64,000 nucleotides of DNA, taken from NCBI RefSeq assembly GCF_003991905.1, contig NZ_RSCL01000017.1:186001-250000 (forward strand). Reading direction: 5' to 3'. This stretch comes from Dulcicalothrix desertica PCC 7102. Lineage in GTDB: Bacteria; Cyanobacteriota; Cyanobacteriia; Cyanobacteriales; Nostocaceae. Below are positions 38,862 to 42,350 of this stretch, in pieces (position 1 is the first letter of the stretch; each line of letters begins with the position of its first letter). Under the pieces are notes generated by a model. It made no database searches and was not told the origin of the DNA. It saw nothing but the letters and a program-made list of their open reading frames with translations. The position numbers and the translations under genes are program-made.

Positions 38862-40523
38862 TTATTTTTTTGGCATTAAATTAGGAGCTTTAGCACGTAT
38901 TTTTGAGAGTGAAACAGCTACCGCACCACGAACATCTTGGTCTGAGTCGGTATTTCCTGCTAATAAATAGCGTATGGTTTCTTTTGTAGGAGTGCGGATA
39001 TCTCCCAAAGCATAAGCAGCAGCAACACGCACGTTTTTATCTGGATTTTTGAGAGCATTACCAAGATAGGGGAGAACTGTAGATTTGTTAGCATGAACGT
39101 TAATTAAAGTAGAAACAACATCTGTACGTATTAGTGCATCTTTATCTTGTAACATAGCTGCAATCTGTGGAGATACTGATTTTGCTTGTTCTCCCATAGA
39201 GCTTAGAGCATAAAGAGCAGATTTACGCACATCGCTGTTTAAGTCTTTGAGCGCGCGCGTTAGTTCGGGTATAGCAGCTTTGGCAATGGTGCCCATATTT
39301 AAAGACTTTGCTGCTGCGTTGCGAACTAGAGGATTATTATCTTTGAGTAGCTGTGTGAGTTGAGGAATTAGGGTTTTTGCTTTACCGCTAAACTCAATTG
39401 CTCGAATTGCATTTTCCCGTACTTTCGCATCAGAATCTTTAAGAGCAGCTGTAAGTTCGGGAAGTGCTGGTGCTGCTAGTTCACCCATATCACCTAAAGC
39501 ACTAGCAGCGTAACTCCGTACTCTTGGGTTCGGGTGTTTAAGTGCATTCCGCAAGTCGGGTATTGCTGCGGCGCCTATTTTACCTAAAGCATAAGCGGCG
39601 CCACGTTGTAAATTTTCATTCTCTGAAAGCAAAGCGGCAATCATTTCTTTTAAAGGACGAATTTCTCCTAAAGCTTCAGCAGCCATTTGGCGAACACCTT
39701 CATCGGGGTCTTTTAAAGCGTCAATTAAAGCGGGTACTGTAGATTTTGCCTTGGCACCGACTAATCTTAAAGTAACAACAGCATTTCTTCGCACTCGTGC
39801 ATCTGTATCTTTCAACCCAGCAGTAATCACTTTTATTGTTTCTGGATTGTTGGTTCGTCCTAAAGATGCAATTGCCGCACCTCTAATTTGGGGATTTGGG
39901 TTTTTGGTGGCAGCAATTAGTTCTGGTGTTTCGCCAATTTGAAGTAAAGCTTGAACCGCATTGTAAATTAGGGTTGCATCTGGGTCATCAAGGATAGCAA
40001 TTAAGCCAGGAACCGCAGCACGAGCATCTGTTCCTAATGCTTCAAATACTCTAATTATACTAACACGTATATTATTATCTTTATCTTTAAGAGTTTCTGC
40101 AAGTTGAGGTACGACAGATTTTGTCGCTTTACCCATATTTCCTAAAGCAAAAACTGCATTTGCACGTACATTTGTATCTGAGTCCTTGAGCAATAATGCT
40201 AAATCTGGTACTGCAACAGAAGCAACTGCACCTATTCTCCCTAAAGCAAAAGCGGCGCCACTTCGCAGGCGCGCATTAGGACTTTTCAAAGCATTTCTTA
40301 ACGCTGGTACTGCCTCAGTTCCCCGTTTACTCAGAGCTTCAGCTGCTTTTAGCCACTGCTGTTCGTTCGACGATTGTAATTGTTCAATTAGAGGATTCAC
40401 ATTACTTCTAGTTTGTGCCCAACTTGTACTATTAATAACCGAAGGCGATATTAAACATAGTGAGATAGCAAAAGTACAACCTAATACTTTTGCACTAGGT
40501 CTCTGAATAAATTTATTCAACAT
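38862..40523 (-). CDS. Exported HEAT-repeat protein (PBS-lyase-like repeats)
   Basis: About 553 residues from MLNKFIQRPS. A hydrophobic segment (VLGCTFAISLCLISPSVI) and an AQT site after SWAQ indicate a Sec signal peptide. The rest is an array of some 14 HEAT units of the type AVPALRNALKSPNARLRSGA and AALALGRIG. There is no catalytic motif, so this is a periplasmic or outer scaffold. The antisense frames across it are artefacts of the repeats. It is convergent with the response regulator and has its 5' end back to back with the thrS attenuators. Confidence 0.88.
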   Translation of the reverse strand: MLNKFIQRPSAKVLGCTFAISLCLISPSVINSTSWAQTRSNVNPLIEQLQSSNEQQWLKAAEALSKRGTEAVPALRNALKSPNARLRSGAAFALGRIGAVASVAVPDLALLLKDSDTNVRANAVFALGNMGKATKSVVPQLAETLKDKDNNIRVSIIRVFEALGTDARAAVPGLIAILDDPDATLIYNAVQALLQIGETPELIAATKNPNPQIRGAAIASLGRTNNPETIKVITAGLKDTDARVRRNAVVTLRLVGAKAKSTVPALIDALKDPDEGVRQMAAEALGEIRPLKEMIAALLSENENLQRGAAYALGKIGAAAIPDLRNALKHPNPRVRSYAASALGDMGELAAPALPELTAALKDSDAKVRENAIRAIEFSGKAKTLIPQLTQLLKDNNPLVRNAAAKSLNMGTIAKAAIPELTRALKDLNSDVRKSALYALSSMGEQAKSVSPQIAAMLQDKDALIRTDVVSTLINVHANKSTVLPYLGNALKNPDKNVRVAAAYALGDIRTPTKETIRYLLAGNTDSDQDVRGAVAVSLSKIRAKAPNLMPKK

Positions 40524-40597
40524 ATATAATTTAAGTAATATTACTCGTTTTGACACAAAAATCTCCAAATAGTTCCGAATTTAATCCAAAAGTTGTA

Positions 40598-40625
40598 TTG
40601 ACAATTGATTGAAATTTGTTTAAAT
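40598..40625 (+). promoter_or_regulatory. Candidate promoter for the thrS leader transcript
   Basis: TTGACA at 40598 and TTAAAT at 40620, spaced 16 bp, are oriented toward the two attenuators and thrS. The -10 is imperfect. A start about 10 bp later would place leader peptide 1 close to the RNA 5' end. Confidence 0.45.
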
Positions 40626-40663
40626 GGGATTATAGGCTCAAATAATTTATCATCTTAATACTC

Positions 40664-40726
40664 ATGATTATTAGCTTAGTCACAACCACCATAACTACTC
40701 GAACTACCAGCCACAGAGGGTTGTGA
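40664..40726 (+). CDS. Threonine leader peptide 1 (thrS attenuator)
   Basis: A 20-residue ORF, seven of whose residues are Thr, in three runs: VTTTITT then RTTS, ending HRGL and TGA. Its last codons (AGA GGG TTG) are the segment that pairs with 40758-40765. A ribosome finishing translation would mask this segment; one stalled at the Thr codons would leave it free. It is the first of two such units in front of thrS and far too short for ordinary gene finders. Confidence 0.8.
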   Translation: MIISLVTTTITTRTTSHRGL

Positions 40727-40765
40727 AACGTTGCGCGTGCGTATCTAAGCAATGATTCAACCCTC
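40716..40765 (+). promoter_or_regulatory. Antiterminator pairing of attenuator 1
   Basis: GAGGGTTG (40716-40723, end of leader ORF 1) is an exact complement of CAACCCTC (40758-40765), which is also the left arm of terminator 1. The two structures are mutually exclusive. Confidence 0.8.
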
Positions 40766-40790
40766 CAGGCGCCATTCCAGAGGGTTTTTT
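40759..40790 (+). terminator. Attenuator terminator 1
   Basis: Stem AACCCTC/GAGGGTT followed by a six-T run. The loop contains GGCGCC. Confidence 0.85.
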
Positions 40791-40802
40791 AGTAATTTTT
40801 CT

Positions 40803-40888
40803 TCTTGTGGAGCGGGCATCCCGAACCGCCCTCAGCTTTGAAAAATGTCCTAAGTCTGAAACAGGCAAGGATGCCTGTTCCACAAGAG
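40803..40888. repeat. MITE-like inverted repeat between the two attenuators
   Basis: Outer arms TCTTGTGGAGCGGGCATCC and GGATGCCTGTTCCACAAGA match as inverted repeats at 17 of 19 positions. It is one copy of a family seen at 42321, 48641, 52972, 56971 and 63107. It separates the two attenuator units and may have been inserted after they duplicated. Confidence 0.75.
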
Positions 40889-40914
40889 ATGTTCTTAAAT
40901 TTATTATTCCCAAT

Positions 40915-40986
40915 ATGAAGAATCTCAAAACCATTACAACTACTACCACTACTACCACTATCACACCTGGAGGGGTTGTGACGTAA
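40915..40986 (+). CDS. Threonine leader peptide 2 (thrS attenuator)
   Basis: A 23-residue ORF with 11 Thr codons, eight of them consecutive (ACA ACT ACT ACC ACT ACT ACC ACT), preceded by MKNLKTI and followed by ITPGGVVT and TAA. The CCT GGA GGG GTT codons near its end form the antiterminator strand. Use of ACA, ACT and ACC together suggests it senses the charging of the tRNA-Thr pool, not one isoacceptor. Confidence 0.92.
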   Translation: MKNLKTITTTTTTTTITPGGVVT

Positions 40987-41017
40987 TTAACTGCGTTCAT
41001 CACCGAACCCCTCCAGG
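40966..41017 (+). promoter_or_regulatory. Antiterminator pairing of attenuator 2
   Basis: CCTGGAGGGGTT (40966-40977) pairs over all 12 bases with AACCCCTCCAGG (41006-41017). The latter also forms the left arm of terminator 2, so the two folds exclude each other. Confidence 0.88.
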
Positions 41018-41040
41018 CGCCAAGCTTAGAGGGGTTTTTT
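41006..41040 (+). terminator. Attenuator terminator 2
   Basis: Eight-bp stem AACCCCTC/GAGGGGTT with GGCGCC in the loop and a six-T tail, ending 31 bp before the thrS start codon. Confidence 0.9.
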
Positions 41041-41070
41041 AATTTCAAAATTTGAACAAGGAGTAAATCA

Positions 41071-42273
41071 ATGTACGACCATAGAGAAATAGCAAGAGCA
41101 ATGGATTTGTTTCATTTTGAAGAACACAGTCCCGGTATGATTTTTTGGCATCCGATGGGTTGGCGCCTGTATCGTGTAATAGAAGATTACATGCGCGGAG
41201 TATATGAATCATATGGATTTCTAGAAGTGCGCTCACCCATAGCACTAAGTCGCGCGCTGTGGGAAAAATCAGGTCACTGGGAAAAATTCCGCGAAGGCAT
41301 CTTCGTAGTCGGTAGCTTAGATAAAGACAAAGAAGACTTAACTCCAGATTATGCATTAAAGCCAATGTCATGCCCTGCACATGTGGGTATCTATAAATCT
41401 GCAAGGCGAAGTTATCGGGAAATGCCTATCAGGTTAATGGAGTTTGGCATGGTTCACCGCAACGAACCATCAGGAACACTATCTGGTTGTATGCGGTTAC
41501 GTCAGTTTGTTCAAGACGATGTTCATATATTTTGTCAGGAAGCAGACATTCAAAACGAGATTCGTAACTTCTTGAATATGGTAAGTGAAGTCTACAAAGC
41601 ATTTGGATATGAGAAGTTTTCCATTAAAATTTCTCTACGACCAGAAAAACGCCTTGGTTCAGATGCTCTTTGGGATAAAGCAGAAGGCGCCCTTAGAGAT
41701 GCATGTGAAGCGCTTAAATACGCATACGAACTATTGCCAGGTGAAGGCGCCTTCTATGGCCCCAAAATCGAAGTCAGCTTAGAAGACCACCTTGGACGCT
41801 CATGGCAGTGCGGTACAATTCAAGTAGACTTTAACTTGCCCCAAATATTTGACCTTGCTTTTGTTAACAGTGAGGGAATATTTGAACAACCTGTAATGTT
41901 GCATCAAGCAGTTCTAGGTTCAATCGAACGCTGGATAGGAATACTCTTAGAAAGTCATGGAGCTTTACCTTTATGGTTGGCGCCAGTTCAAGTTGCAGTC
42001 GCACCAATATCCGATAAATCTGCTCAATGGGCTTTATATGTAGCATCTAAATTAAGGCGTAACGGTGTTAGAGTCGAACTAGCAAAGCGCGACGCAACAA
42101 TTTCTAAAAAGATTCGTGAACTATTTGAACGCAAAATTCCTTTAATTGCTGTTGTTGGAGAACAAGAAGCAGCCAAAGGTACAGTAAATCTTAGGCGCCT
42201 GGGTGTTTCTGGTCAACAAGAGATTGAATTATTAGACTTGGAGCAGGAATTAAGAAACCTGGTTTCTCACTGA
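41071..42273 (+). CDS. thrS: Threonyl-tRNA synthetase lacking TGS and editing domains
   Basis: 400 residues instead of about 640; the protein begins at the catalytic domain (LFHFEEHSPGMIFWHPMGW). Class II motifs are present and the active-site zinc ligands are C101 (KPMSCPAH), H129 (GMVHRNEPSG) and H278 (PVMLHQAVLGS). The C-terminal anticodon domain (LAPVQVAVAPISD to the end) is complete. Loss of the N-terminal TGS and editing (N2) domains means Ser-tRNA-Thr cannot be hydrolysed in cis; in Anabaena an editing-less ThrRS works together with a second, editing-proficient enzyme. Two tandem Thr attenuators lie upstream, and the AAGGAG ribosome site starts at 41057. Confidence 0.95.
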   Translation: MYDHREIARAMDLFHFEEHSPGMIFWHPMGWRLYRVIEDYMRGVYESYGFLEVRSPIALSRALWEKSGHWEKFREGIFVVGSLDKDKEDLTPDYALKPMSCPAHVGIYKSARRSYREMPIRLMEFGMVHRNEPSGTLSGCMRLRQFVQDDVHIFCQEADIQNEIRNFLNMVSEVYKAFGYEKFSIKISLRPEKRLGSDALWDKAEGALRDACEALKYAYELLPGEGAFYGPKIEVSLEDHLGRSWQCGTIQVDFNLPQIFDLAFVNSEGIFEQPVMLHQAVLGSIERWIGILLESHGALPLWLAPVQVAVAPISDKSAQWALYVASKLRRNGVRVELAKRDATISKKIRELFERKIPLIAVVGEQEAAKGTVNLRRLGVSGQQEIELLDLEQELRNLVSH

Positions 42274-42320: not shown

Positions 42321-42350
42321 TAGGACGGGCAGGATGCCCATCCCACAAGA
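42321..42350. repeat. Dispersed repeat half-element (GGGCAGGATGCCC family)
   Basis: ACGGGCAGGATGCCCATCCC then ACAAGA, the right arm of the element described at 40803-40888, lies between thrS and the convergent pentapeptide gene. Confidence 0.7.

Follow-up and report, generated by a model that had tools for sequence, protein, structure and literature searches.

Organization of the thrS3 locus

The window analysed here, a stretch of 64,000 nucleotides from the cyanobacterium Dulcicalothrix desertica PCC 7102, contains a threonyl-tRNA synthetase (ThrRS) gene, thrS3, which is preceded by two tandem units. Each unit consists of a short threonine-rich ORF and a hairpin followed by a T tract (Table 1). 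In this genome of 11.4 Mb (G000) thrS3 is the third ThrRS gene; the other two are open frames of 667 and 626 aa, which show 42% and 40% identity to ThrRS3 over the shared part.

Table 1. Features of the thrS3 locus, given in window coordinates.
Feature	Position	Strand	Description	Basis
Promoter-like -35/-10 site	40598..40625	+	TTGACA-16-TTAAAT, upstream of leader 1	Sequence
Leader peptide 1	40664..40726	+	ATG start; MIISLVTTTITTRTTSHRGL; 20 codons, 7 Thr	Read from sequence; Thr columns conserved
Segment A of unit 1	40716..40723	+	Antiterminator left strand, inside leader 1; GAGGGTTG	8-nt complement to segment B, CAACCCTC (40758..40765, left arm of hairpin 1)
Terminator 1	40758..40790	+	Arms B and C; T6 at 40785..40790	Sequence, folding
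Leader peptide 2	40915..40986	+	ATG start; MKNLKTITTTTTTTTITPGGVVT; 23 codons, 11 Thr, 8 of them consecutive	Read from sequence; Thr columns conserved
Possible 1:2 protector hairpin	40962..40980	+	End of leader 2; CACACC / GGGGTTGTG	Alignment A1
Segment A of unit 2	40966..40977	+	Antiterminator left strand; CCTGGAGGGGTT	12-nt complement to AACCCCTCCAGG (41006..41017, left arm of hairpin 2)
Terminator 2	41006..41040	+	Arms B and C; T6 at 41035..41040	Sequence, covariation
thrS3	41071..42273	+	ThrRS of 400 aa with 5 Thr; no domains besides the catalytic and the anticodon-binding one	Domain matches, TIGR00418, composition

At an E value of 0.001 ThrRS3 matched only PF00587, the class II catalytic core, and PF03129, the anticodon-binding domain; the N-terminal TGS and editing domains of full-length bacterial ThrRS were not found in this domain search. 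The first-pass annotation had described the gene as editing-less, which is borne out by this domain content. Against TIGR00418 (threonyl-tRNA synthetase) the protein scores 462 bits, above the equivalog cut-off of 383.65 bits. In all 36 orthologous loci (see below) the match to ThrRS3 begins at query residue 1 to 3 and a start codon is found at this place. We also considered a zinc-free replacement enzyme with a link to zinc as in Anabaena T2. In an alignment with a ThrRS chain of known structure, Cys101, His152 and His278 of ThrRS3 fall on Cys and His residues, which we take to be zinc ligands. Because these presumed ligand residues are matched, a zinc-free replacement is not suggested.

Direct reading of the upstream region reproduced both leader ORFs as first annotated, with their numbers of codons and threonines and the uninterrupted threonine run in the second. 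The same is true for the six-T tails of both hairpins and for the complementarity of 8 and 12 bp between each leader end and the left arm of the hairpin behind it. That thrS3 begins just past the second hairpin also stands, only the distance of 31 bp has to be corrected to 30 nt between the last T and the ATG at 41071. A generic promoter and terminator scan did not list either hairpin, probably owing to its loop limit of 8 nt. A Shine-Dalgarno-like box precedes thrS3 in 35/35 cases; in the window it begins about 18 nt past the last T.

Conservation of the two units

Orthologues of thrS3 were collected by protein search in three overlapping genome samples, the own genome included. The order sample contributes 11 carriers among 388 genomes (E 1e-115), the class sample 11 among 388 (1e-150) and the family sample 18 among 217 (1e-150). 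The 36 distinct loci belong to Cyanobacteria and include two plasmids of Acaryochloris marina MBIC10699. For 35 of the loci the available upstream sequence is 490 nt or longer, and all leader counts are based on these; L109, with 67 nt upstream, was excluded. Unit 1 is found in 35/35 and unit 2 in 33/35 of the upstream regions (32 by an automatic rule, L102 by a looser rule), and both units are kept across ThrRS3 proteins down to about 65% identity. The Thr codons and complementary arms, whose conservation in relatives had been named as a check on the first annotation, are retained to the same extent. In the two remaining loci leader and terminator of unit 2 were lost or decayed together: the unit has decayed in L103 and is replaced by repeat-like DNA in L108, and the decayed second ORFs of both loci were left out of the unit counts. 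In L104 the hairpin of unit 1 is not followed by a clear T tract. In L118 (G740) about 170 nt including a strong inverted repeat are inserted between leader 2 and its terminator, which represents a natural spacing test. The thrS3 gene of L105 (G550) is itself broken by an in-frame TAG.

On the sense strand of the 35 upstream regions we counted 68 short ORFs rich in Thr, a number that includes the decayed ORF of L103 and omits the second leader of L102, which falls below this counting rule. A terminator-like element follows 65 of them. No Thr-rich short ORF was found on the opposite strand of these regions. In 50 shuffles of the regions in 2-nt blocks the mean was 3.8 Thr-rich short ORFs, with 0.02 followed by a terminator.

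The nucleotide variation within the leaders carries a coding signature. At positions -5 to -10 before the Gly-Gly of leader 2 the entropy is 0.0–0.5 bits at base 1, 0.0–0.9 bits at base 2 and 1.0–1.3 bits at base 3 of the codon; the columns of the threonine run retain Thr and vary mainly at codon position 3. Leader 1 is less uniform, with certain columns mixing Thr with Ile, Arg or Pro. All 33 leaders 2 start with ATG, as do 32/35 leaders 1, the other three starting with GTG. Shine-Dalgarno-like boxes are rare upstream of the leaders and were seen for 0/35 leaders 1 and 7/33 leaders 2.

In 31/35 loci the motif TTGAC occurs in the 150 nt that precede leader 1; it is absent in L095, L096, L115 and L118. 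When up to four mismatches were allowed, a promoter-like site was found upstream of leader 1 in 32/35 loci, compared to 14.3 expected from shuffles. Between the two units such a site is present in only 5 loci.

Terminators and alternative pairing

Folding was carried out on 67 units. Unit 1 of L104, which has no clear T tract, was omitted from this set and from alignment A2; unit 2 of L118 with its long insertion was omitted from alignment A1. If the ribosome masks the RNA at the stop codon of the leader, 67/67 units are predicted to form a 3' hairpin, 7 to 19 pairs long, ahead of the T tract. The T run behind the hairpin comprises four T in 7 units and five or more in the other 60. Counted over the loci, a hairpin with at least four T is present in 34/35 units 1 and 33/33 units 2.

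The competing pairing was assessed on RNA ending just past segment B. A ribosome placed on the first clustered Thr codon allowed at least six pairs between leader end and B in 67/67 units, one placed on the last Thr codon in 51/67 units, both counts being made in generous windows of about 30 nt on each side. In 29/33 units 2 the A:B duplex ranks within the best 5% of synonymous recodings, but this is the case in just 15/34 units 1. The RNAalifold consensus of unit 1 is the A:B pairing, and each of its 6 pairs is kept in 32 to 34 of 34 rows. For terminator 2 we found 92.5% of cells paired and 18 cells changed on both sides; 0/500 shuffles were as high, which means that this terminator covaries more than shuffles do. 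In the antiterminator 79% of cells are paired and the core hardly varies at all, and its covariation is not above that of shuffles. The candidate 1:2 hairpin at the end of leader 2 has 96.2% of cells paired in alignment A1, with one pair changed on both sides, and is not part of the RNAalifold consensus of unit 1.

Folding of the leader RNA had been proposed along with the first annotation, and in the window both units switch in the minimum free energy (MFE) fold. When the full RNA was folded at equilibrium across the set, placing a ribosome on the first clustered Thr codon removed the terminator from the MFE structure in 18/67 units and placing it on any Thr codon in 31/67 units; with no ribosome the terminator is absent in 14/67 units. 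Since fewer than half of the units switch in such equilibrium folds, the co-transcriptional order of folding must matter. The order of synthesis is presumably important in known attenuators too. The two units present three features expected of a ribosome-mediated attenuator: a Thr-rich leader, an intrinsic terminator and an alternative pairing with segment A in the last leader codons.

Search for further targets and known RNA families

Covariance models of both units were used to look for further targets. Each model also detects the other unit, which shows that the two are alike, and no further unit was found in the own genome below an E value of 0.1. In 376 genomes of the order (388 in the protein search) the unit 1 model, run with stricter filters, gave 21 places in 11 genomes at E up to 0.001. 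Nine of the 11 genomes are carriers of an intact thrS3 according to the protein search, and the places are the same. The matches in the other two, G353 and G350, which were negative in the protein search, were rejected as new targets. The former lies close to the end of a contig, at a thrS3 truncated after about 111 residues (L235), the latter at a decayed thrS3 pseudogene which still has a remnant of unit 1 (L236). All 21 matches thus adjoin thrS3 or a remnant of it. Two thrS3 carriers, G380 and G381, are absent from the matches and were either outside the 376 genomes or missed.

No Thr-rich leader was found within 400 nt of the 17 ThrRS paralogues (0/17). The Rfam model of the enterobacterial threonine leader (RF00506, Thr_leader) gave 15.5 bits (E 4.5) in comparison to a gathering score of 55 bits, and no T-box was among the five Rfam matches up to E 5 in 40400–41200. 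A DNA pattern of six ACN codons proved useless as a specific screen, as only 3 of its 29 overlapping matches in the own genome belong to the leader.

Threonine content and codon choice

ThrRS3 is poor in the amino acid it is predicted to charge. Thr accounts for 1.46% of residues in the 36 orthologues, whose roughly 400 residues include between 3 and 10 Thr. The corresponding region of 17 cyanobacterial paralogues has 3.89% Thr, and 80 named homologues have 3.69%; the p-values of these composition comparisons treat related sequences as independent and serve as a guide only. In both comparisons none of the 20 residues is depleted as strongly as Thr. Ser is raised to 7.6%, compared to 4.9% in the paralogues and 4.6% in the named homologues. 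Seven alignment columns have Thr in at least half of the other ThrRS, and ThrRS3 keeps it throughout in one of these only. The replacements in the other six columns are mostly Ser, Val, Arg/Gln and Leu.

The remaining Thr codons of ThrRS3 are ACC or ACT in 39/213 cases (18%), in the paralogues in 137/250. In the leaders ACC and ACT make up 377/497 Thr codons (76%; 67 units). For six other four-codon boxes the NNC/NNT fraction in ThrRS3 lies between 0.53 and 0.57. Among the tRNA-Thr genes of the genome we found GGU once, UGU twice and CGU once in a list which may be incomplete (150 of 739 candidates scored). From the codon split and this tRNA-Thr set it appears that the sensor and the enzyme lean on different isoacceptors. 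The second tRNA-Thr UGU is located at L179 (G000:C2:248400-262600), where about 28 tRNA genes are densely arrayed on a single strand, including a tRNA-Leu AAG and one unassigned tRNA. This array resembles the tRNA arrays of Nostocales.

Origin of thrS3

We placed ThrRS3 in a tree of 93 rows, made up of 35 thrS3, 16 paralogues and 42 named sequences; L105 with its in-frame stop, the partial L251 and 38 of the 80 named homologues were left out. ThrRS3 forms one clade (100/100) on a long stem and joins alphaproteobacterial ThrRS among the sampled rows (99/92), apart from the paralogues of its own hosts. Its exact sister is uncertain because of the long branch. The host family of the window does not form one group inside the clade which, together with the plasmid copies and the patchy presence, suggests transfer of thrS3 between cyanobacteria. 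A thrS3-like protein was not among the best 80 of at least 579 relatives obtained in a scan of genome contigs, the identities ranging between 48 and 55%. A viral scan did not yield thrS3, the two relatives detected having 47 and 50% identity.

The two plasmids of Acaryochloris marina MBIC10699, pREC2 (L095) and pREC1 (L096), are typed as conjugative, and each carries thrS3 with both units. On pREC1 cysS is the next annotated gene upstream of thrS3 and folE is nearby; on pREC2 a Fur-family regulator is located near thrS3. No conserved neighbours were found in flanks of mostly 1.5 kb on each side, where the most widely shared ORF occurs in 4/36 loci.

A model for the control of thrS3

We propose that a single transcript would start near 40630 and run through leader 1, terminator 1, leader 2, terminator 2 and thrS3. 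As long as Thr-tRNA is charged, chiefly the GGU isoacceptor which reads ACC and ACT, the ribosome would reach the stop codon of the leader and cover segment A. B would then pair with C and RNA polymerase would terminate. If charging fails, the ribosome would stall in the threonine run, the uncovered segment A could pair with B while C is still to be synthesized, and RNA polymerase would continue. Antitermination would be needed in both units for transcription of thrS3. Judged by sequence, the units are very probably ribosome-mediated attenuators reading threonine codons; we are slightly less confident that both of them work as switches. The first-pass annotation had read the locus as threonine attenuation of thrS, a view that is supported and appears largely right.

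Two units in series may make the switch steeper, as had been suggested. Their presence may be explained no less well by a lower leak, as termination would be multiplied. Since leaks would multiply across the two units, an enzyme that lacks editing and is probably error-prone would be kept off as long as it is not required. ThrRS3 has shed Thr and mostly uses ACA or ACG for the rest, and could therefore be translated during a shortage of Thr-tRNA; this avoidance of Thr and of ACC/ACT in the enzyme goes beyond the first-pass annotation. The idea that ThrRS3 is an error-prone backup induced by uncharged tRNA-Thr, with the codon split being adaptive, is plausible, and we consider its chances to be about even. 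A more far-reaching proposal is that of a horizontally spreading, self-contained emergency module, in which two attenuators for the same signal, reading the charging of the GGU isoacceptor, are combined with an editing-less ThrRS whose gene is largely purged of the codons read by this isoacceptor. We put this forward tentatively, as it falls a little short of an even call.

The trigger might be a different one. thrS3 could encode an inhibitor-resistant ThrRS for self-protection, the attenuators sensing a poisoned housekeeping enzyme, and the auxiliary TrpRS of Streptomyces is said to be an inhibitor-resistant enzyme of this kind. A self-protection gene would fit the patchy distribution (11/388, 11/388 and 18/217 genomes of the overlapping samples), the plasmid copies and the failure of the host family to form one clade on the gene tree. 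The lack of conserved neighbours, with no flanking ORF shared by more than 4/36 loci, speaks against it and we regard it as unlikely. It is compatible with the attenuation of a backup enzyme, since the trigger alone differs.

It is also conceivable that one unit alone is a working switch and the other a relic or a plain terminator. Loci with only unit 1 intact (L108 and L103), the insertion of about 170 nt inside unit 2 of L118 and the unit 1 of L104 without a clear T tract point in this direction. However, each unit has its own leader, A, B and C, and both are kept in 33/35 loci with proteins down to about 65% identity, so that a single functional unit seems improbable. An effect of the hairpins on translation or on the stability of the mRNA, e.g. 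as sites of processing, instead of on transcription termination is highly improbable in our view: although the leaders mostly lack Shine-Dalgarno boxes, at least four T follow the hairpin in 67/68 units and neither hairpin of the window covers the Shine-Dalgarno box of thrS3. The least probable explanation is an action of the leaders via nascent peptides (e.g. the IAPGGT end) or via a general slow-down of translation instead of Thr-tRNA charging. Leader 2 ends do largely keep I-A/T-P-G-G-T at the residue level, but the end peptide common to both leaders is Gly-Gly only, which is already demanded by A:B pairing, both leaders have a Thr cluster cognate to the downstream enzyme, and base 3 of the Thr codons varies while the residue stays.

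Comparison with known systems

The enterobacterial thr operon leader (RF00506) resembles the units of thrS3 in its Thr-rich leader, its alternative hairpins and its terminator; it differs in that it controls threonine biosynthesis. Vecchione and Sello reportedly described in 2010 an auxiliary, antibiotic-resistant TrpRS of Streptomyces under ribosome-mediated transcriptional attenuation, which is similar to thrS3 in its proposed control. It concerns another amino acid and phylum, and is said to have a single unit and a full-length enzyme. Attenuators are described as known or proposed for pheST in gamma-proteobacteria and for trpS and leuS in Streptomyces (PMC1262725). Like thrS3 these are synthetase genes with a leader peptide, but those named in that source lie outside the Cyanobacteria. 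The thrS leader of S. lividans, which is likewise not cyanobacterial, lacks a clear terminator and has only two Thr codons (PMC8079986).

An arrangement of leader-peptide attenuators in tandem is already known from Salmonella mgtCBR, where two tandem leader ORFs are present in one mRNA leader; the authors call this a singular example (PMC3641672). The mgtCBR leader senses two different signals, ATP and Pro-tRNA, whereas both units of thrS3 carry Thr codons (PMC3641672). In Anabaena the ThrRS pair T1/T2 is similar to the present case in being a duplicated cyanobacterial ThrRS with a conditional second enzyme and impaired proofreading. T2 is however described as induced by low zinc via Zur, while thrS3 belongs to a truncated clade with Thr leaders (PMC4787780). 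At the time of a 2010 survey leader peptides were known only from Proteobacteria and Actinobacteria, to which the survey added one in bacilli (PMC2965389), and according to a 2016 study there are no reliable data on attenuation in cyanobacteria (PMC4833913). We did not find a system of the thrS3 type among open-access titles on cyanobacterial attenuation or thrS leader peptides.

If the model holds, thrS3 would be controlled by the first ribosome-mediated attenuator known in Cyanobacteria, and would show that the coupling of transcription and translation is used for gene control in this phylum. The module would provide a rescue enzyme which can be made exactly when the sensor codons are unreadable, and the absence of editing may permit Ser at Thr codons as a stopgap. 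According to the theory outlined in PMC1183508, starvation discharges some isoacceptors more than others, and it is the sensitive codons that are used in leaders. thrS3 would be a built-in case of selective charging, on sensor and effector alike, and the opposite codon choice of leader and enzyme would offer a sharp test of this theory outside E. coli. The loci would comprise a natural series circuit for one signal (33/35) as well as natural one-unit variants, which would make the contribution of the second attenuator directly testable.

An interspersed repeat around the locus

The window also contains an interspersed repeat with an end like GGATGCC(C/T)GTTCCACAAGA. It is located at 40803–40887 and at 42332, 48641, 52983 and 57022. 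Allowing up to three mismatches we counted six matches within the 64 kb, where 0.02 would be expected. An inverted pair of this type of repeat lies between the two attenuators, and similar DNA takes the place of unit 2 in L108.
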